Assembly (NCBI RefSeq): GCF_932294415.1
Contig: NC_065542.1
Span: 45,783,942-45,847,941 of the forward strand
Source: Quercus robur
Taxonomy: Eukaryota > Streptophyta > Magnoliopsida > Fagales > Fagaceae
Length of the DNA stretch: 64,000 bases
Direction: 5' to 3'
Shown here: piece by piece, positions 18,010 through 59,620 of the stretch
Layout of the letters: every line of letters starts with the position of its first letter
Numbering within the stretch: position 1 is the stretch's first letter
Position numbers and translations under genes: made by a program
Notes under the pieces: model-generated
The model's input: the letters and a program-made list of their open reading frames with translations, nothing else
Told to the model about the DNA's origin: nothing
Database searches by the model: none

Positions 18010-21000
18010 GAGACTGTTAACATGTATTAGGGTATGTGGGCTTTAGGCCCACCTTGTTTACTTGTATAGCACACTTGTACTACACACTCTGTTTCCTATA
18101 TAAAGACACTTATGTATATTCTATTACTTGAGAAATACAATACAATCATTCAGTATTTCTAACATGGTATCAGAGCCACTGCTCTAATCCTTTGGTGTTC
18201 TACTCTTAAGCAGTCTTGTCTTCTTGGGTGTCCTCTGTAGCCGTTTTTGTGAGCAGCACCGCGACTCCAGCACATCAAAGACCACTGCCTTGCCACCACC
18301 ACCGCTTCCACTTCTCCGATCAGACCACAGATAGCATCATTGAAAAATAGTCTCTCCAATCTGCCTTTCTGTGAAATTTCATCTTCATCGGACCTTCCAC
18401 GCGCCCCCACGCGCCACTAGAATTCTTGGCGTCATAGGCACGCGCTACCACGCGCCGCCAAAACTCGTCACGCGCCGCCACGTGCCTCCTGTATCAGTCA
18501 CGCGCCGTCACGCGCTACCATGCACCGGAACTTGTTGGCCGACGTTATCATCCTGCCTGCTTACGTCAGCCCTAGCTGATGTCAGCGCCACATTATCTGC
18601 TAACGTAATCACCTGTCAGCCTGCTGATGTCATCCGTTGACTTTGACCAGGTTGATCGTTGACTTTTAACCAGAGTTGACTTGTTGCAGTCCAGGTTCTC
18701 CTTACCTAGTTTTTCGCGTAGATTTCCTTTTTGCAGTCCATTTTTGCATATTTTGCTTCTAAATGAGAAATAAGGACAGGTCTTCTTCTTATTGCAATAA
18801 TCGTCGCTAACAATCCAACAAACGTCTTTGCAGTTTTTGCAAACGTTTTGGCCACAATATTGAAACTTGCTATCATCGCAACAAATCAGCTGTGTCTATT
18901 TCCGCTGCTACTGTTGCTAACACTGAGAGTGTCCAACCAATGGCTCCCGTCTCTGCACAGTCTAAGTCTTCAGGATGCACTTTCACCATATCCACAGATG
19001 ACCTTAAAAACATCATCGCCAATGTCATTCGTATGGTTGGTAATGCATCTTATTCCTCTTCTTTCTCAGCTTTATCTGGTATGTCTCCTTCCTCTTGGCT
19101 TATGGATTCTGCTTGTTGCAATCACATGACTCCTCACTCGTCTTTATTTTCTGAACTTAAACCTGCACCACACCCTCTTAATATTCACAGAGCAAATGGT
19201 TCCACTATGTCTGGTCATAATATAGGTTCCGTTTCAACCTCCAATCTCTCGGTTCCTAGTGTCTTTAATGTTCCTGACCTTTCTTACAATTTATTTTTTG
19301 TGGGCCAATTAGCTGAGTTAGGTTATCGCATTATCTTTGATTATTCTGGGTGTATTGTGCAGGATCCAAGGACGGGACAAGAGCTTGGGACCGGTCCCAG
19401 AGTTGGGCGTATGTTTCCCGTGGACAACCTTTATCTTCCACTTGTTGCTCCTGTTTCTGTTGTTGCAGCTACTGCAGTTTCTTCTACTCCTTCCCTTGCA
19501 CTTTGGCATGCTCGACTTGGTCACGCATCTTCCTCTCGTGTACAACAATTGGCTTCTAGAGGTCTATTAGGTTCAATATCTACAGAAAATTTTGATTGTG
19601 TTTCATGTCAGTTAGGAAAACAACCAGCTTTGCCTTTTAATACTAGTGAATCAATATCCACTGATATCTTTGACCTTATTCATTCTGATGTTTGGGGGCC
19701 TTCCTCTGTCTCTATTATTGGTGGGTCTCGATATTTTGTTGTCTTTGTTGATGATTACTCTCGCTATAGCTGGATTTTTAATATGAAACATCGTTCTGAG
19801 TTATTGCAAGTATATTCTAATTTTGCAAAAATGGTTGAAACTCAATTTTCAAAACGTATCAAAAATTTTCGATCTGATAATGCTCTTGAGTACACTCAAT
19901 ATGCTTTCCAAGCTGTTTTGCATTCCTATGGCACTGTTCATCAACTAACTTGTCCAGGTACCTCTCAGCAAAATGGTAGAGCCGAACGAAAACTTCGTCA
20001 TATTCTTGACACTGTTCGTGCTCTTCTTCTCTTTGCCAAAGTTCCTGCTCCTTTTTGGGGTGAAGCTGCCCTTCATGCTGTTCATGCTATTAATCGCATT
20101 CCAAGTCCTGTTATTCAAAATCAAACTCCATATGAGCACCTTTTTGGGTCACCTCCAGACTATCATCACCTTTGCTCCTTCGGTTCTGCTTGTTTCGTTC
20201 TTCTTCAGCCACATGAGCATAACAAACTTGAGCCTCGGTCAAGGCTTTGTTGTTTTCTTGGCTATGGCGAAACTCAAAAGGGGTATCGATGTTATGATCC
20301 TGTTTCTCATCGTCTTCATATCTCCCGCAATGTTGTCTTTTGGGAACATCGCTCCTTTGTCGAGCTCTCTCACTTCCGTGCCTCCCTATCTTCCTCCTCT
20401 GTTTTAAATCTTTTTCCAGATGAGGCACATATTCCTTCTGTAACTGCTCCTGATCCTTCTATAGTTGCTCCTGATCCTCCTATAGACTTCTCTGTCCAAC
20501 CACCAGATACCTTTGATCCCTTTCCTAGTTCACCCTTTAATGAACAGGTGGAAGATGCACAGGTTGAAGACGAGCTACCCAACCCTGAGCTTGGGTCCCC
20601 TGCTCCTGCTCCGCCTGAAGATCTTGCACAAGACATTCCACCTCGTCACTCAACTCGGGTAAGATCCATTCCTACACATTTACTTGATTATCATTGTTAC
20701 ACTGCCCTTGCTACACTGCATGAGCCTCACACCTATCGTGAGGCTTCCACTGACCCTTTATGGCAGATTGCAATGAAAGAGGAACTTGATGCATTATCTA
20801 AAAACCATACTTGGGATTTGGTGACTCTCCCCCCTGGGAAATCTGTGGTTGGTTGTAAGTGGATCTACAAGATTAAGACTCGCTCTGATGGGTTCATTGA
20901 GCGCTACAAAGCTCGTCTTGTTGCAAAAGGTTTTACACAGGAGTATGGGATTGATTATGAAGAGACCTTTGCTCCGGTTGCTCGTATCTCATTTGTTCAA

Positions 21001-22396
21001 GCTCTCTTAGTTGTTGCTGCTGCCTATGTCAAAAATGCATTCCTTAATGGGGATTTAAGTGAAGAAGTTTATATGCAACCTCCTCCCGGTTTCTTTGTTG
21101 AATCAAATAAGGTTTGTTACCTTCGACGTGCTCTTTATGGCCTTAAACAAGCTCCACGAGCTTGGTTTGCCAAATTCAGCTCTACCATCTCTCGCTTAGG
21201 TTACATGGTCAGTCATTATGATTCTGCCTTATTTCTTCGTCGCACTGACAAAGGCACTATTTTACTTCTCCTGTATGTGGATGATATGATCATAACTGGT
21301 GATGACCTCAGTGGCATTCAAGAACTCAAGGATTTTCTCAGTCAGCAGTTTGAGATAAAAGATCTTGGCTATCTCAGCTACTTCTTGGGTCTTGAAATCA
21401 TTCATTCTACAGATGGACTTTATATTACTCAAGCCAAGTATGCCTCTGAACTCTTGTCTCGAGTTGGACTCACTGATAGCAAGACTGTTGACACTCCAGT
21501 TGAGCTTAATGCGCATCTGACTCCGTCAGGGGGAGAAACCGTTGTCTAATCCCTCTCTTTACAGACGCTTGGTTGGCAGCCTAGTTTATCTCACTGTCAC
21601 TCGTCCAAACATTTCCTATGCTGTTCACCAGGTGAGTCAGTATTTGTCTGCTCCACGATCGACTCACTATGCTGCTGTTCTGCGCATTCTTCGATACCTA
21701 AAGGGCACTCTCTTCCATGGTCTTTTCTACTCTGCTCAGTCTCCTCTTGTTCTCCGTGCATTTTCTGATGCTGATTGGGCAGGAGATCCCACTGATCGCA
21801 GGTCCACCACTGGTTATTGCTTTCTTCTTGGTTCTTCTCTGATTTCTTGGCGAAGCAAGAAACAAACTCATGTGGCTCGCTCCAGTACTGAAGCAGAATA
21901 TCGTGCCCTTGCTGATACCACATTTGAGCTCCTTTGGCTACGGTGGCTTCTCAAAGACTTAGGTGTATCCACATCCTTTGCTACTCCTCTTTATTGTGAC
22001 AACCAGAGTGCCATTCATATTGCTCACAATGATGTCTTCCATGAACGGACTAAACACATCGAGATCGATTGTCATTTTATCCGTTATCATCTTGTCCATG
22101 GTGCTCTCAAGCTGATCTCAGTTTCTTCTAAAGATCAACTTGCAGATATCTTCACCAAGTCACATCCTAAGGGACGTCTTCACACTTTGATTGACAACCT
22201 CAAGTTGGTCTCACACCACCTTGAGTTTGAGGGGGGCTGTTAACATGTATTAGGGTATGTGGGCTTTAGGCCCATCTTGTTTACTTGTATAGCACACTTA
22301 CTTGTACTACACACTTTGCCTCCTATATAAAGGCACTTATGTATATTCTATTACTTGAGAAATACAATACAATCATTCAGTATTTCTAACAGAGAC
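18010..22396 (+). mobile_element. Copia LTR retrotransposon with GAGAC target duplication
   Basis: Left LTR 18015-18164 (150 bp) and right LTR 22238-22391 (154 bp) both begin TGTTAACATGTATTAGGG and end TTTCTAACA. They differ by about four substitutions and one 4-bp indel, so the insertion is fairly recent. Target duplication GAGAC is at 18010-18014 and 22392-22396; the paralogous copy A shows the empty site near 9690. Primer-binding site TGGTATCAGAGC at 18165-18176, polypurine tract GAGGGGGGC at 22229-22237. Gag is mostly missing: only 640 bp separate the PBS from the zinc knuckle. At 18400-18530 the leader is unusually GC-rich with about nine CACGCGC-type words. Non-autonomous now. Confidence 0.95.
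18811..22243 (+). pseudogene. Copia pol polyprotein, disabled
   Basis: Order of domains: CCHC zinc knuckle (CSFCKRFGHNIETCYH, about 18830-18877) behind a TAA at 18808-18810; aspartic protease WLMDSACCNHMT (DSA instead of DSG); GAG-pre-integrase LWHARLGHA; integrase with HSDVWGP, RSDNALEY and QQNGRAERK; reverse transcriptase with WIYKIK, RYKARLVAKGFTQ and YVDDMIITGDD; RNase H with DADWAGD, STEAEYRA, DNQSAIHIA and KHIEIDCHFIR. Defects: the segment that should contain the first catalytic Asp of the reverse transcriptase (family pattern MDV.NAFLNG) reads AAYVKNAFLNG, so about nine residues including the Asp are deleted. A one-base shift in a G run near 21530 puts RNase H (21542-22243) in a different frame. 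Copia order (integrase before RT) is clear. Confidence 0.92.
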
Positions 22397-22688: not shown

Positions 22689-24618
22689 TCTATATATATA
22701 TATATATAACCGAAGCTTTTGAAGCTTCCACAATTTTCCATGTCAGCACATTTTTTAAATATAATATAAAAACAAATTAAAAAAAAATATATATAAAACT
22801 GATGTCACGGGAAATTCAGCCACATAGTAGTAATATATAAATCTCTTAAAACCTAAACCTAAACCTAAACCTAAACGTAAGGACTAAATATTTATGCGCC
22901 TTCTCTTGCATAAACCAAATACATCAGGAAAGCAAGACCTACTGGTTTATGGAGAAGTTGTATATAGGTTTTCGTTTATGGAACAGTTGTAAATATTTAT
23001 ACCTTTGAACTTCTCTTGCTTTCCTCATGCTTCACAAATTTGAATAGTATACCAATTGAATAGCTTTATTTTACTAATACTTCTGTCATTCTTTGCAGTC
23101 TCATGCTTCACAGATTCTTGGTTTTAAATTTCAATATGAACTGATTCCAATTTTTCCCAAGGTAAGGATGTGTCGTAGGTTGACTGGTCTTCAAGTTATA
23201 GTATACTAATTGAATAGCTTTATTTTACTAATACTTTTGTCATTCTTTGTGTAAGGTTGAATTTATTCAACCATCTAATTGGCTTTATTCCGTGCCAAAT
23301 TTGTTTGTAATTCAGCATTTAGTAACCCTGTATTTAGGTGGGATTGTTGTAAGGGTAGTGAGTGAGATAGTGTGAAGATTGCTCAAGAGTGTGCAAGAAA
23401 ACAGAGTGTCGCGGCTGGGACTCGCGGGTGGACTCGCGGCTTCAACCCGCCAGAAAATGCACACGTGCCAAGCATGCTGGAAGATGAACAGTCATGCTAG
23501 CTGGAGCACTACAGGACAAAACAGGACAACTGGCCATACGGTTAACTCGCGACTGGAACTCGCGACTTAGTTAAGCCGCGAGGTCAAGCCGCGAGCCACC
23601 CCTGTTTTGGAAAAACCTGACGTTTCGCATTCCACTCCACTTCAGTATAAATACCCTTTTAACCCACGATTGAAAGAGAGCTTCCAGAGAGAATTTTGAG
23701 AGAGAAACCCTAAAGAAAAACCAGATTGTTTCACCCACAATCTCTACCTTAGAGTCTCATCAAATTCCCCCACTCTCTTCCTCTCCATTGTCAAATCCTT
23801 GAGAGGCCTTTATACCAAACCTGGTTCTCGCCATTATCATTTCTGTGAGACAGACGTTTGGAGTTCTGGGAAGCAGTTAGGAAGGAGCCAATATTCATTG
23901 GTTGATGCTACGGTGTAGTAGCGGAATCCGGAAAGCTAGAAAAGAAAAAGGTTCGGCGCAACCTCGTTGGAGCAAGAAGCTTGGAGGGCTTAGGTGCATT
24001 GGGTAGATTAGGCTTGGAGGGTCTATTGCTGTCCTTGTATCCCAACTGTATTTTCTAGTGGATTGATTACCGCTTGGAGGGCGGCGGAGAGGTTTTTCGC
24101 CGAGGTCTTCGGTTTCCTCTTCGATAACATATCTGGTGTTATCGCTGTGTTTGCATCTTCCTTCCTCTCTATCTCTGCCTTTACATTATCTGCTGTGATT
24201 TATTTTGTTGTGGCTTAGATAGTTGTTTAAACAATTCCTTATTATAGCATATGTTAAGTTTCCGCACACTAGTTGTTTAACATATTGCTGTGTTGATTAA
24301 ATTGATTTTTGGGGGTCTAAACGTTCAAAAGTGTTTTTATACACGTTTTTGAACTTTCACTTTGCAGTCTCATGCTTCACAGATTCTTGGTTTTAAATTT
24401 CAATATTATCAGCGTATGGAAGTAAATAGTCCAATACCGCAAGATTCTTGGTTTTACATCAGTTCTTTATCTCAAAGATAAGGCTTTTATTTCTACCGCA
24501 AGAACTATTTAGGTATGTATCCCTTGCAAGCACACATGAACTTAAATTGTCTTTTAATATATGTATGCTTTATTATTTTCCAATAGTTTTCCCGTGCATC
24601 GCACGGGTTAGCGACTAG
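22689..24618 (+). mobile_element. Non-autonomous Helitron 1
   Basis: It begins TCTATATATATATATATA and ends GCACGGGTTAGCGACTAG, preceded by the hairpin CCCGTGC-ATC-GCACGGG about 11 bp from the end. It is inserted exactly between A (22688) and T (24619) with no target duplication; copy A at about 9980-9990 (CTTCTCATATATCATATC) is the empty site. 5' TC, 3' CTAG, a terminal hairpin and A/T insertion are the Helitron hallmarks. No Rep/helicase. It contains a solo LTR (23250-24359), an internal partial tandem repeat (TCTCATGCTTCACAGATTC twice) and four CCTAAA units near 22850-22876. Confidence 0.93.
23245..24364 (+). mobile_element. Solo LTR inside Helitron 1
   Basis: CTTTG target duplication at 23245-23249 and 24360-24364 encloses a 1,110-bp unit that begins TGTAAGGTTG and ends ACTTTCA. 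It has promoter-like TATAAATACCC near 23646 and no coding capacity. The uninterrupted form of the target (CATTCTTTGCAGTCTCATGC) is seen at about 23089-23108 in the Helitron's own internal repeat. Typical product of LTR-LTR recombination; superfamily cannot be told without the interior. Confidence 0.9.
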
Positions 24619-36300: not shown

Positions 36301-36825
36301 TATACATATTTAAAGCTAAAGTTGAGAGAAAATTCAATTAAGATGACAATAGAAAATTCGAGCTTAAATCCAAAAAATTGGTTCTATTTATTTATTCTAT
36401 TCTATTTTCTTGGAAATTAGTATTTTGATTTTCTGAACAAGGCATACATGAATTCAAGGTGCATGTATACTAGATCCGGACTTATGGCCTGTTTGGATGT
36501 TAAAAAAAGGAGGGCTAGTAGAGTAGAGGGAGGGAGAGTAATTCAATTATCTTGTTTGGAAGTTTTTTAAGGAATGAGGGAGAGGGGTTTCAACTATCTC
36601 TAGCCCCTCATTTTTAATTCCCCCAAATTGGAGAGATTTGGAGGGAGAGTAGAGTAGATAAATTATTGACAAAATGAATTCTCTAATTTACCATTTCTAA
36701 ATTAACAAAATTACAAATTAATTATATAAATAATCTTGTTTGTATTAAAAAAAAATGATAATAATCTTGTTTGTTTGTTTCCTTAGAAAATTTAAGCATT
36801 GACTTTTTGGTTGCTGATTTGAATT

Positions 36826-36857
<32 letters not shown>

Positions 36858-36858
<1 letters not shown>

Positions 36859-37020
36859 GCAGATACCGTCCAAGTCTTCTTCTTCATCAATCGGAAAATC
36901 CAACCATGTCTCTGGATGCATCCCGATATTCCTCGCGAAAGCCAGAACCTCATCGGTGATCCCGGCGCCACCAAAACCATGCTCCTCCTAATCCGATTCC
37001 AATTCCATCTCCAATCCGAA
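36858..37020 (-). pseudogene. Captured fragment of a BSD-domain protein gene
   Basis: Minus-strand translation: FGLEMELESD, stop, EEHGFGGAGITDEVLAFARN, then IGMHPETWLDFPIDEEEDLD. This is the opening of the BSD domain in plant BSD proteins (family-like ITDEVL.FA.NI..HPETWLDFP). It follows directly on the 4CL-like fragment with only about 25 bp between, in the same orientation, and ends at a poly-A/T tract. Confidence 0.75.
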
Positions 37021-37044
37021 CGAGTCGGCATTCATCTTTGTTGA

Positions 37045-37300
37045 AATTAGTGATTTCTCAACAACGATGAGGACGACGTCGTTTGTGTGAACATTGAGAT
37101 GGAGCAGAGAGTGGGCAAGCATGGAGACCTGGAGTTTGAGCTAGCAGAAGGTTAGGATTTCATCGGAATTGGCGTTGATGAGAGCGAGGCTGTGTGGGGA
37201 AGAAGAGGAGTTTTGGAAGAGGAAAGAGGTGAGAGAGAGGCTGGGATTGGTGGGGAGGTGAATCGGTGGTCTTGGGATGTGTAGGCTCGGGTTTTGGGGT
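37045..37300 (-). pseudogene. Captured fragment of a 4-coumarate-CoA ligase-like gene
   Basis: Minus-strand translation: IPRPPIHLPTNPSLSLTSFL, then NSSSSPHSLALINANSDEIL, then LQVSMLAHSLLHLNVH and NDVVLI. It matches the N-terminal region of the AMP-binding 4CL-like (4CLL/OPCL) family, before the ATP-binding motif. One in-frame stop (after LTFC). The homology ends near 37045, where unrelated sequence joins. Confidence 0.75.
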
Positions 37301-38430
37301 TGAAGGTGGCTACTATGCTGCCATGGGTGTTTGGGGAGTGAGAAACTTTGGGAATTGTTTGTTTCTCGGGAAAGTTGAGGAAATGGGAGGTTTTTGATTT
37401 TTTATTATAATTTTTTTTGAGGTAATAAAAATTATTTTATTTTATATTTTTTTATGGGAATAATAGTTAATAGTAGTTTTATATTTTTATTAGTGGTATT
37501 TGATAAAATGAGAATGTTGATTAAATAATTATTTAATTTAACAAATTAAGCATAGACTAATGTTGCAAGTCCATTTTCAAATAGGTGTAAATTTGTCTAT
37601 TTTAATCATTTACTCTCCTCCCCATCCTAATTTTTAAAACATCCAAACAAGGGGAATGGCTAATTACTCCATTCCTCCTTACTAATTTCAAAAACATCCA
37701 AACAAGGTGGAGGGGAACCATTCCCCTCTACTCTCCTCTCCTCTTCTCTCCTCTCTCTCTAAACTTCCAAACAGGCCATTAATCCAAGGAAGAACTTGCT
37801 TGGCCCATGAAATATATAATTGTATGCTAGAAATGGGCTAAAACCAATCTGCTTGTCCCAAAAAATGAAGCCCAAGAACTTAAATGGGCAGAACATTCCC
37901 AAGCCCCAACCACAAGCTTTCGAACTCAAATTGGTACATTTCGCTGATATTTGGTTGATAATGTGGCAAATGGCCCTCAAGAACTTCCATTCTATTCAGT
38001 CTTGGAACAACATTCAGATTCAAGTTGTTTGTTTGATTGCATCTGGGCCCATCTCCACTTCTTAATCTCTCTTAAATAAATTTTATTCTTGGTTTTTGGT
38101 TTAGTTGTTGCAGTTCTTTTTTAATTTAATTTAATTTTTTGAATTTAGCATTTAAGAAAAAGTTAAGTTTACTACTATTACAAGGTCCAAGAAGGATAAG
38201 ATTTATGTCCAGTGCACTATAGATTTGAACTCGATACAAGACTAACATGTTTTAAAAATTGGATGTGTGTCATGTCTGTGTTGTATTGACATTCAATGCA
38301 TTAAAGATGAACCAAACTTATTTACTAATATTGTAATTTATGATTCATGAATGAGGAAAAAAGAATTATTATATTTTATTTTTAGAATTTTAATTTATTA
38401 TATTTTATTAAAAAATACTAATAAAGTAGT

Positions 38431-45399: not shown

Positions 45400-46270
45400 T
45401 TTTAAATCTTAATTTTTTTTTTTTTTGAGAAAAACAAATTTTAAACTTCAAATTCAAAAGATTAGGAGAAAATTTGTTTTTATTAAAGTAGTTGTCACGT
45501 TTGACTCCACTTAGGCAGGTCCAAATATGGTGTAAACAGATATATTTGATCACGTATGTTGAATCAAATATAAAAAATATCCTCTGCCGTTTATCTTCAA
45601 AATAAAAAATAAAAAATATCTTCCCTTCATTGACATCGTACATTTGAGTGGCTGCTTAGTGTCAGTTTGTTACACAGCTTTTTGCCTTTTTTTTTTTTTT
45701 CAAAGATCTAACTTTAGTTTTTAAAAAATAAGCCAATTTTTTGTAATTTTCGATTCCACATTTTATAAATAAATTGTACCTAAACGCATTAATTTCATGG
45801 TGCAAAAGAAGCAACGTACCATAGAAGATATATATCCTATCAATTAACAAAAGTTTATTATTATTATTATTTATAACTCAAGATTTTTGGAAGAGGGATC
45901 CAACAGCCAAGTGAGATGACAATAGAAAATTCAAGCTGAAATCCAAAAAAATTGGTTTCATTTATTTATTCTTTTCTATTTTCTTGGAAATTAGTATTTT
46001 GATTTTCTGAACAAGGTACTTGAATTCAGTTTCTCAAAAAAAAAAAACATGAATTCAGAAAGCATGTATACCAGATGACTCAATCCAAGATAGAATTTTG
46101 CTTGGCCCAAGAAATATATAAGTGTGCGCCAGAAATGGGCTAAAACTAATCTTCTTGGCCCAAGAAAAAGCCCAATAACTTAAATGGGCACAACATTCCC
46201 AACCACAAGCCTTGTCAAATATATGAGAACATTTGCTGCTATTTGGTTGATAATGTGGTGAAAGTTATTC
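45400..46270. repeat. GST3 upstream region, duplicate of GST4 upstream
   Basis: Colinear with 58290-59070 (ATTAAAGTAGTTGTCA, GGTGTAAACAGATATATT, GAAGAGGGATCCAACAGC). Near 46035-46053 is TTTCTC plus 12 A between two GAATTCA words. The same tail is present at about 58855-58876 but absent from the third copy (36445-36460), so it is a small poly-A retroposition older than the GST3/GST4 split. Confidence 0.8.
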
Positions 46271-58289: not shown

Positions 58290-59620
58290 CTCAGACCCTA
58301 GATTAGGATAAAATTTGTTTTTTATTAAAGTAGTTGTCATGTTTGACTGCACTTAGATAGGTCCAATATGGTGTAAACAGATATATTTGATCATGTATGT
58401 TAATCAAATAATAAAAAAAAAAATCCTCCGCCCCTTCCTTCATTGACTTGATACATCTGAATGGCTGCTTAGTGTTGTTGTTACAACTTTCATCTTTTTG
58501 TTTTTTTGTTTAAACTTTTTTTCATAGATCTAACTTTAGTTTTTTTTAAAAATAAGCTAATTTTAAATTTTTTTTGTTCCACATATTATAAATAAATTAT
58601 TAAATAAACTGTATTTAAATGCATTAATTTCATGGTGCATAAGAAGCAAGCATGGAAGATATAGATCCTATCAATTAACAAAGTATTTATTTTTTTAATT
58701 TATAACTTGAGATTTTTGGAAGAGGGATCCAACAGCTAAGTGAGATGACAATAGAAAATTCGAGCTTAAATCCAATTTTTTTTTTTTCATTTATTTATTC
58801 TATTCTATTTTCTTGGAAATTAGTATTTTGATTTTCTGAACAAGGTACTTGAATTCAATTTTTCAAAAAAAAAAAAAACTTGAATGCAGGCGGCATGTAT
58901 ACCAGATCCGAACTTAATCGAAGAAAGAATCTTGATTGGCCCAAGAAATATATAAGTATGTGCTAGAAATGGGCTAAAACCAATTGGCCCAAAAACCAAG
59001 CCCAATAACTTAAATGGGCACAACATGCCTTCAAGTTCAAACTAGTACATTAGCTGCTTCGGTTGATAATGTGGAGAACTTCTATTCAATATTTCAATCT
59101 TGGAACAACATGCAGATTTAAGTTGTTTGTTTCATTGCATCCAGGCTCATCTCCACTTCTTGATCTCTCTTAAATATATATATATATATATATATTTTTT
59201 TTTTTCATTCAATTTCTCGATAATTTGTTTTGTCATTTGGTTTTCGGTTTTTGCTTAAGTAGTTCTTTTTTATTTTATTTATTTTTTAAATTTAACATTT
59301 AAGAAAAAATGTTAGTTTTGTACTACTATTACAAGGTCTAGCAAGGATAAAGTTTCTGTTCAGTGTCCTATAGTTCACTAGATCTAAAGAGGATACGAGA
59401 CTAACATGTTTTTCAAATTGGATTCAAAATTGGACATGGGTCATATCTAAATTGCATTCACTGTTTCAATGCAATGAACATGAGTCATACCTGTCTACCA
59501 ATATTGTTATTTATGATTCATGAATGAGAAAGAAAGAATTATTAATTTTTATTTTAAAATTATTAATTATTCAAATTAAATTTTATTAAAATATACTAAT
59601 AAAGTAGTCACATGCATTTT
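58290..59620. repeat. GST4 upstream region, duplicated block
   Basis: Matches 45400-46270 (GST3) and, in its distal part, 36310-38430. It contains the shared poly-A micro-insertion near 58855-58876. No gene of its own; the short minus open frame 58820-59026 is part of the repeat. Confidence 0.8.

Follow-up and report, generated by a model that had tools for sequence, protein, structure and literature searches.

Does the 1.3-kb insertion found in an array of GST-like genes and fragments carry pieces of two host genes, and if so, how did it come by them? The way in which cut-and-paste transposons acquire genes is still debated, the choice lying between gap repair with template switching and the co-mobilization of neighboring copies. 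The original prediction, made from a 64,000-nucleotide stretch of Quercus robur DNA (the window), was of a chimeric Pack-type PIF/Harbinger element with a 4CL-like and a BSD-gene fragment in the same orientation.

The limits given for the element proved exact (Table 1). It starts with TTA-TGGCCTGTTTGGA and finishes with TCCAAACAGGCCA-TTA, the 13-bp terminal inverted repeats (TIRs) being perfect and TTA present on both sides. Copies of a CTTGTTTGGA-like repeat lie internal to both ends. A TIR with up to two mismatches is matched three times in the window compared with a chance mean of 1.64, so TIR counts within the window alone are no proof of an insertion. The decisive evidence is the two paralogous sites without the element. 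As had been claimed, both homologous GST flanks run uninterrupted across the site, each with a single copy of the target (TCA in one, TTA in the other). Further copies were also to be sought by their ends, and the exact end with its TWA, TWATGGCCTGTTTGGA, is found at 522 places in the genome (261 forward and 261 reverse) while the reversed control gave 0 + 0.

Table 1. Features of the insertion and of the corresponding empty sites, in window positions
Feature	Position	Strand	Remarks
Complete PIF/Harbinger-type insertion, non-autonomous	36482-37781		1.3 kb
Target-site duplication TTA, left copy	36482-36484	.	Two paralogous flanks without the insertion
Left TIR, TGGCCTGTTTGGA	36485-36497	+	13 bp
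Left arm (element 1-315 with duplication)	36482-36796	+	About 0.9 conserved across aligned family members
BSD-gene piece	36783-37047	-	Aligned to donor L049; 93% identity over 36858-37047
Filler between gene pieces	37048-37063	.	16 nt; unmatched in either donor
4CL-like piece (5′ UTR, start, about 80 codons)	37064-37384	-	89% to L063/L064
Right arm (element 916-1300 with duplication)	37397-37781	+	Conserved across aligned family members; conservation rises at about 916
Right TIR, reverse complement of TGGCCTGTTTGGA	37766-37778	-	
Target-site duplication TTA, right copy	37779-37781	.	Two paralogous flanks without the insertion
Empty target TCA	46080-46082	.	Paralogous GST-array flank
Empty target TTA	58914-58916	.	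Second paralogous GST-array flank

The GST-like array (window 27.9-59.6 kb, minus strand; genes and fragments named by eye) has repeated intergenic flanks, and the Pack element is in one of the three flank copies. Two other insertions are seen in the window. A Helitron-like insertion of about 1.9 kb (22690-24618) ends in CTAGT after the hairpin CCCGTGCATCGCACGGG, which we take to be a Helitron signature, and has an uninterrupted paralogue near 9.985 kb. A Copia-type retrotransposon, read from its ORFs (18014-22391; short terminal repeats some 155 bp long and 94% alike), interrupts a duplicate of the 8.8-10.8 kb segment, with an uninterrupted paralogous site near 9.69 kb.

The element belongs to a sizeable family. 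Searching the whole genome with it gave at least 97 matches (the best 40 of 958 candidates scored), and copy numbers are lower bounds. We fetched 37 family places, making 38 loci with the window copy. A TIR pair is present in 34 of the 38, with identical TTA or TAA in 27, ATA in one, and unmatched duplications in six, the duplication itself having counted in part toward the pairing score. Among the first 100 of the 522 ends listed, 19 pairs of exact ends face each other within 8 kb. All 19 agree in TTA or TAA, where the pattern demands TWA and chance agreement is about one half per pair. Seven of these pairs span 451-501 bp, ten 1.18-1.74 kb, one 3.6 kb, and one 7.7 kb. No description of this transposon family was found in the literature searched, which comprised open-license papers.

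Members have arms of about 315 bp on the left and about 385 bp on the right with sharp inner limits, and the centers between them differ among the fetched members: many have nothing in common there, while others have cargo in groups or no more than a stub in common. Left-arm conservation is about 0.9 up to element position 255 and 0.85 at 301-315, after which it drops; the stretch near 256-300 is partly missing in many members, and about 256-285 is nearly private to the window copy. Median arm divergence from the other copies, taken for six elements, is about 9-14%, which means that the family overall is not young.

The 7.7-kb member, L075, has the same TIRs, flanked left and right by TTA, and over about 240 bp each of its ends is like the Pack arms (86% at positions 3-235 and 84% at positions 1044-1298 in comparison with the window element). 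Its ORFs, searched individually and all on one strand, match DDE_Tnp_4 (6e-15 and 8e-8, in two ORFs) and Myb_DNA-bind_3 (3e-16). A DDE transposase with a Myb/SANT-like second protein is the pair known for PIF/Harbinger, and from these matches L075 appears to be an autonomous-type relative. The TWA duplication and the short TIRs common to this transposase-encoding relative, with its DDE protein and Myb partner, place the family in PIF/Harbinger. The seven short pairs (445-495 bp between TIRs) are cargo-free MITEs made up of left-arm sequence (about the outer 227 bp) and right-arm sequence (about 265 bp). With L075, these MITEs, and the Pack copies, the family has autonomous-type, MITE, and gene-carrying forms. 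L083 (C2:42467400-42471200), the 3.6-kb member with perfect TIRs and TTA, is possibly an intermediate deletion derivative. L084 and L086 are of a second scaffold type, having only the outer 236 and 257 bp in common with the arms; they share other sub-arm sequence, and their centers differ (pyruvate kinase in L086).

Donor alignments cover most of the center of the window copy. Donors were sought in the genome from which the window comes (G000; 785.7 Mb in 42 contigs). The 4CL-like piece has 89% DNA identity over about 320 bp to two tandem arm-free genes at C35:5.40-5.42 Mb (L063 and L064), a third neighbor having 81%. An ORF of the first of these donors matches Pfam AMP-binding (2e-67), and its best solved-structure matches are 4-coumarate:CoA ligases. 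The BSD piece is 93% identical over 190 bp to an arm-free gene, L049, at C41:5.20 Mb, with the BSD domain of the donor (Pfam, 1e-12) in a separate ORF farther along. A Pfam scan of the element's own short frames gave nothing significant (AMP-binding at E 0.19 only), so the genes were assigned by DNA identity to these donors. Through the identity of the donors, the original prediction of a chimera of 4CL-like and BSD sequence is borne out. We rejected the idea that the two pieces are neighbors in an ordinary gene, the donors being on separate contigs.

The BSD piece comprises the end of an exon and, judging from the GT that follows the conserved exon end, probably the start of an intron. A poly-A/T run (36827-36857) and one in-frame TAG are within it, and its low end overlaps the left arm in an ambiguous zone. 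The 4CL-like piece is broken by one frameshift and one in-frame TAG. On the minus strand, read from right to left, the 4CL-like 5′ region comes first and the BSD piece second, in the same orientation and in a common reading frame at the join. This arrangement might be taken to favor a chimeric gene that functions, or regulatory small RNAs made from the element and directed at the donors. With two in-frame TAG stops and a frameshift there is no open frame across both pieces, and identity to the donors is only about 89-93%; we consider either function highly improbable. The window copy appears instead, from its sequence, to be a decayed passenger in which no coding function is evident. Based on the Pfam scan of its frames and the length of its center, it has no transposase gene, and like other Pack-TYPE elements it holds host-gene DNA between its ends with the donors elsewhere. 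For the 16-nt filler, a fold-back origin was rejected, as the stability of the 60-nt junction is nothing out of the ordinary (it is equaled by 119 of 1000 dinucleotide shuffles and by 152 of 2558 60-mers from the window).

We also surveyed the cargo of the other members. The 55 distinct elements form 19 cargo clusters if 100 bp of shared center is required, 23 at 150 bp, and 26 at 200 bp. This set includes L028 and L034 by their BLAST limits; it is without L021, L027, L035, L058, and L073 (no usable TIR pair or a single arm), the duplicates L048, L055, L060, L061, L062, and L072, the MITEs, L075, and L083. Frames in the cargo match the Pfam families Arm, Kelch, I29 propeptide, histone deacetylase, DnaJ, LRR, SCAI (1e-50), and pyruvate kinase. 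Aldo-keto reductase and EF-hand cargo scored under the curated cut-off, the names RopGEF-like, CSLC-like, and HDA6-like come from reading translations, and the Pfam search gave no convincing match for several further frames. Six elements were picked by exact ends alone. Their duplications match, as the pattern demanded TWA, and their centers mostly differ from those of other members; the likenesses are a cargo common to L085 and L087, the sub-arm sequence of L084 and L086, and a left stub in L088 as in L011.

Two sources in a single element had been thought unusual. In this family at least nine of the 55 fetched elements carry two identified genes (the window copy, six with BSD and HDA6-like pieces, L074, and L012), the HDA6 assignment being Pfam-tested in L051 only. 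Chimeric cargo recurs in this Harbinger family.

Beyond the arm-free 4CL-like and BSD genes, 13 further cargo pieces were searched and 12 have a second place in the genome at 87-98% (the best 40 of 72 candidates scored). The exception was the Kelch piece, without a second place among the best 40 of 72 candidates. Of 14 second places fetched, 12 are arm-free, a 25-bp match in L092 excepted, and cover 10 cargo genes, bringing the total with arm-free donors to 12. The other two places, L097 and L101, both bear arms, and we rejected them as donors and excluded them from the count. Eight of nine donor ORFs scanned have the expected Pfam family, the ninth (CSLC-like by eye) having none; this count is without the SCAI donor, the SCAI cargo itself having been scanned. 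Cargo pieces are about 200-760 bp across the family, and the pyruvate-kinase piece of L086 is 97% identical to its donor over 364 bp. Between cargo and arm-free donor the best identities range from about 89% to 98%, which suggests that the captures differ in age. L097 and L034 are the same EF-hand-carrying element, 96.7% alike and about 64 kb apart (C41:18.89 and 18.95 Mb). In this pair, the only near-identical one with flanks compared, recent transposition was rejected, the identical 30-bp flanks indicating a segmental duplication.

The two pieces of the window copy are found in other members with different partners. The 4CL piece is present at 18 places, of which three are arm-free genes, 13 are loci with arms (the window copy among them), and two were left unfetched (C3:50383873 and C5:7654493). 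One 4CL locus, L073, has only the right arm within reach. The 4CL stubs start at 139, 186, 209, 232, 279, 284, and 311 of the 350-base query, and their right ends are at, or no more than about 8 bases from, the query's right end. To the left of the stubs the cargo differs, being Arm repeats in L012, an I29 protease propeptide in L074, and another sequence in L065-L068, L070, and L071, which are cut at 139. Twelve loci with the BSD piece were fetched, and ten of them, counting the window copy, have arms (at L058 only the left arm is seen); six BSD matches were left unfetched. It runs on as in the donor in three carriers (L050, L052, and L058). In six elements it is cut at about window position 37047 and an HDA6-like piece follows. 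The window copy has the BSD piece cut at the same limit, followed by the filler and the 4CL-like piece. Left stubs common to L009 and L016, L020, L012, and L023 are also nested, from 199 to 87 bp. Read from sequence comparison, these nested stubs indicate that the middle of the element was probably overwritten repeatedly, with serial replacement of the cargo.

The joints between pieces recur as well. A left-arm motif, GAGAAAATTTAAG, is found in 50 of the 55 elements when up to 5 edits are allowed, and about seven continuations start within a few bases of it. The point at which the BSD sequence stops is common to two contexts, and the left boundary of 4CL agrees to within about three bases in the window copy and L009/L010. 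Agreement at the recurring joints is to about one to three bases (up to 5 edits for the left-arm motif), and is not same-base identity.

The window copy is a non-autonomous, Pack-type member of a PIF/Harbinger family, presumably mobilized in trans by a transposase like that of L075, and in our judgment its cargo was probably copied in by template switching. Acquisition would begin when the center of an element is lost, or when a repair tract from the arms stalls. Synthesis would then jump to an ectopic template, either a host gene or a sibling element, and rejoin the opposite arm, each round overwriting the middle and leaving stubs at the sides. In the window copy, a BSD tract (seen at nine other armed loci) and a 4CL tract (at 12 other armed loci) would have been joined via the 16-nt filler. 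That the donors are still in place points to copying, and the BSD piece, apparently with intron sequence, would point to a genomic template. For animal Pack-TIRs, a model in which gaps are filled with switching of templates has been published (PMC8277862). Template switching predicts scattered breakpoints, yet several junctions in this family recur within one to a few bases.

In the alternative of tandem insertion, two neighboring copies enclose a stretch of host DNA, and once their inner ends are lost the whole moves as one element, the enclosed DNA becoming the cargo. The passages cited from PMC8903248 present this model for Zm-Pack-PIF and others, and it has been proposed for Pack-CACTA and other Pack-TYPE elements. 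A second family copy is indeed in the flank at four of the 37 first-fetched loci (L010, L011, L019, and L045). L066 (C1:10512819 region) looks composite, with a 4CL stub, a partial right arm, a second right end beyond, and TAA at both outer ends. Variable inner deletions could likewise give nested stubs, but independent deletions would need to halt near the same arm positions every time. The donor genes also remain in place, and no third TIR copy (up to two mismatches) is found within the element. Nor are family copies seen bracketing the donor stretches: over about 4.6-5 kb around the two 4CL donors nothing matches an arm at more than 60 bits (near L064 there is a 27-bp match only), and a search reaching 1.5 kb from the BSD donor gave no match at E 1e-6, though past copies may have left. 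The remaining donors were viewed with less than about 1.3 kb of flank. As the source of the cargo, tandem insertion seems unlikely to us; given the four loci and L066, it may contribute. The recurring joints are the most unusual feature of the family, and neither template switching nor tandem insertion alone predicts them. Common descent may account for part of them.

The window copy could also be the product of an exchange between a Pack element carrying BSD and one carrying 4CL, instead of owing its second piece to a fresh capture from a host gene. On the left, its BSD junction is one that other BSD carriers have, and on the right its 4CL junction is one that other 4CL carriers have; among the fetched elements it alone was seen with both pieces. 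Where they meet the filler, its BSD piece ends within about a base of the limit in the six BSD+HDA6 elements, and its 4CL piece starts within about three bases of that in L009 and L010. Against this, the window BSD piece is nearer to the donor (93.2%) than to any of the nine siblings (85-91%), the closest siblings being about as near to the donor as it is, and the weakly supported left- and right-arm trees give no clean two-parent origin. We put exchange at slightly under an even chance. Inner boundaries that recur in single-piece carriers would be accounted for if a BSD-filler-4CL ancestor had arisen first, by a double capture in a single event, and the other BSD or 4CL carriers had since lost one half. 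However, L050, L052, and L058 extend past the common BSD limit like the donor, and from a truncated ancestor they would need a second capture; we think such an ancestor improbable.

The trees do not order the captures. In the 4CL tree the clade of elements against donors has a bootstrap of 40, the BSD tree has the donor branching among the elements, and in the arm trees the window copy is ungrouped with its cargo relatives. Support in the arm, BSD, and 4CL trees is too weak to place BSD before or after 4CL in the window copy. The sequential capture originally proposed stands as serial replacement across the family; in the window copy either piece may have come first, and the pieces may derive from genes or from sibling elements. 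More tentatively, and as a possibility we would not call probable, the family may act as a cassette exchanger in which cargo is swapped at a few preferred joints, namely the inner ends of the arms and existing piece-to-piece joints, reused to within a few bases.

How does this family compare with known systems? Pack-MULEs and Mutator subfamilies have similar ends with varied host-gene cargo that is sometimes chimeric, as here; they differ in belonging to another transposase superfamily and in having long TIRs and 9-bp duplications. Pack-MULEs are named in the excerpt of PMC13317346. Maize and rice have Pack-PIF elements, for example Zm-Pack-PIF cluster 18, which the cited passages of PMC8903248 describe as non-autonomous PIF/Harbinger elements with mostly TTA/TAA duplications, related non-Pack elements, and internal host-gene insertions, all likenesses to this family. 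One Pack-PIF subgroup bears pieces of two genes. According to the same passages these pieces are 163 and 58 bp and the cluster elements average 402-535 bp, compared with pieces of about 200-760 bp here. Set beside that account, this family is distinguished by arm-free donors for 12 genes, its arms, and nested stubs. In grapevine, transduplications are described for PIF (Pifvine-3) and hAT (Hatvine-6) elements; as in this family, exon and intron pieces lie in PIF elements, and Hatvine-6 elements have common TIRs and transposase sequence with the rest often unique (PMC2528002). The grapevine elements with gene pieces are characterized by their transposase, whereas the carriers of the present family are short, the window copy having shown no transposase. 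Maize Ds2 elements, in the sections cited from PMC3260210, similarly share termini of about 0.5 kb around unrelated internal sequence, with gene pieces in two cases, one including an intron. Ds2 and Ds-l4 differ in being of the hAT superfamily with an 11-bp TIR, and gene capture is there called occasional. Turmoil-1 of C. elegans has two captured protein-coding pieces, though it is an animal element with the pieces within its inverted repeats, as the extract of PMC2572040 has it. Gene capture by PIF/Harbinger elements, which the original prediction held to be less documented, is already published for grapevine, maize, and rice. What distinguishes this family is the number of its cargoes, the nested stubs, and the recurring joints.

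For the debate over gene acquisition, the family supplies in one genome hundreds of ends, an autonomous-type relative, cargo-free MITEs, donors at about 89-98%, and nested stubs, so that capture order and breakpoints become measurable and need not be assumed. If cargo is indeed exchanged as cassettes, repair would have preferred points of stalling or switching, and the stubs would be an ordered record of captures in one family. Chimeric cargo, as this family demonstrates, can recur in the PIF/Harbinger elements of a plant.
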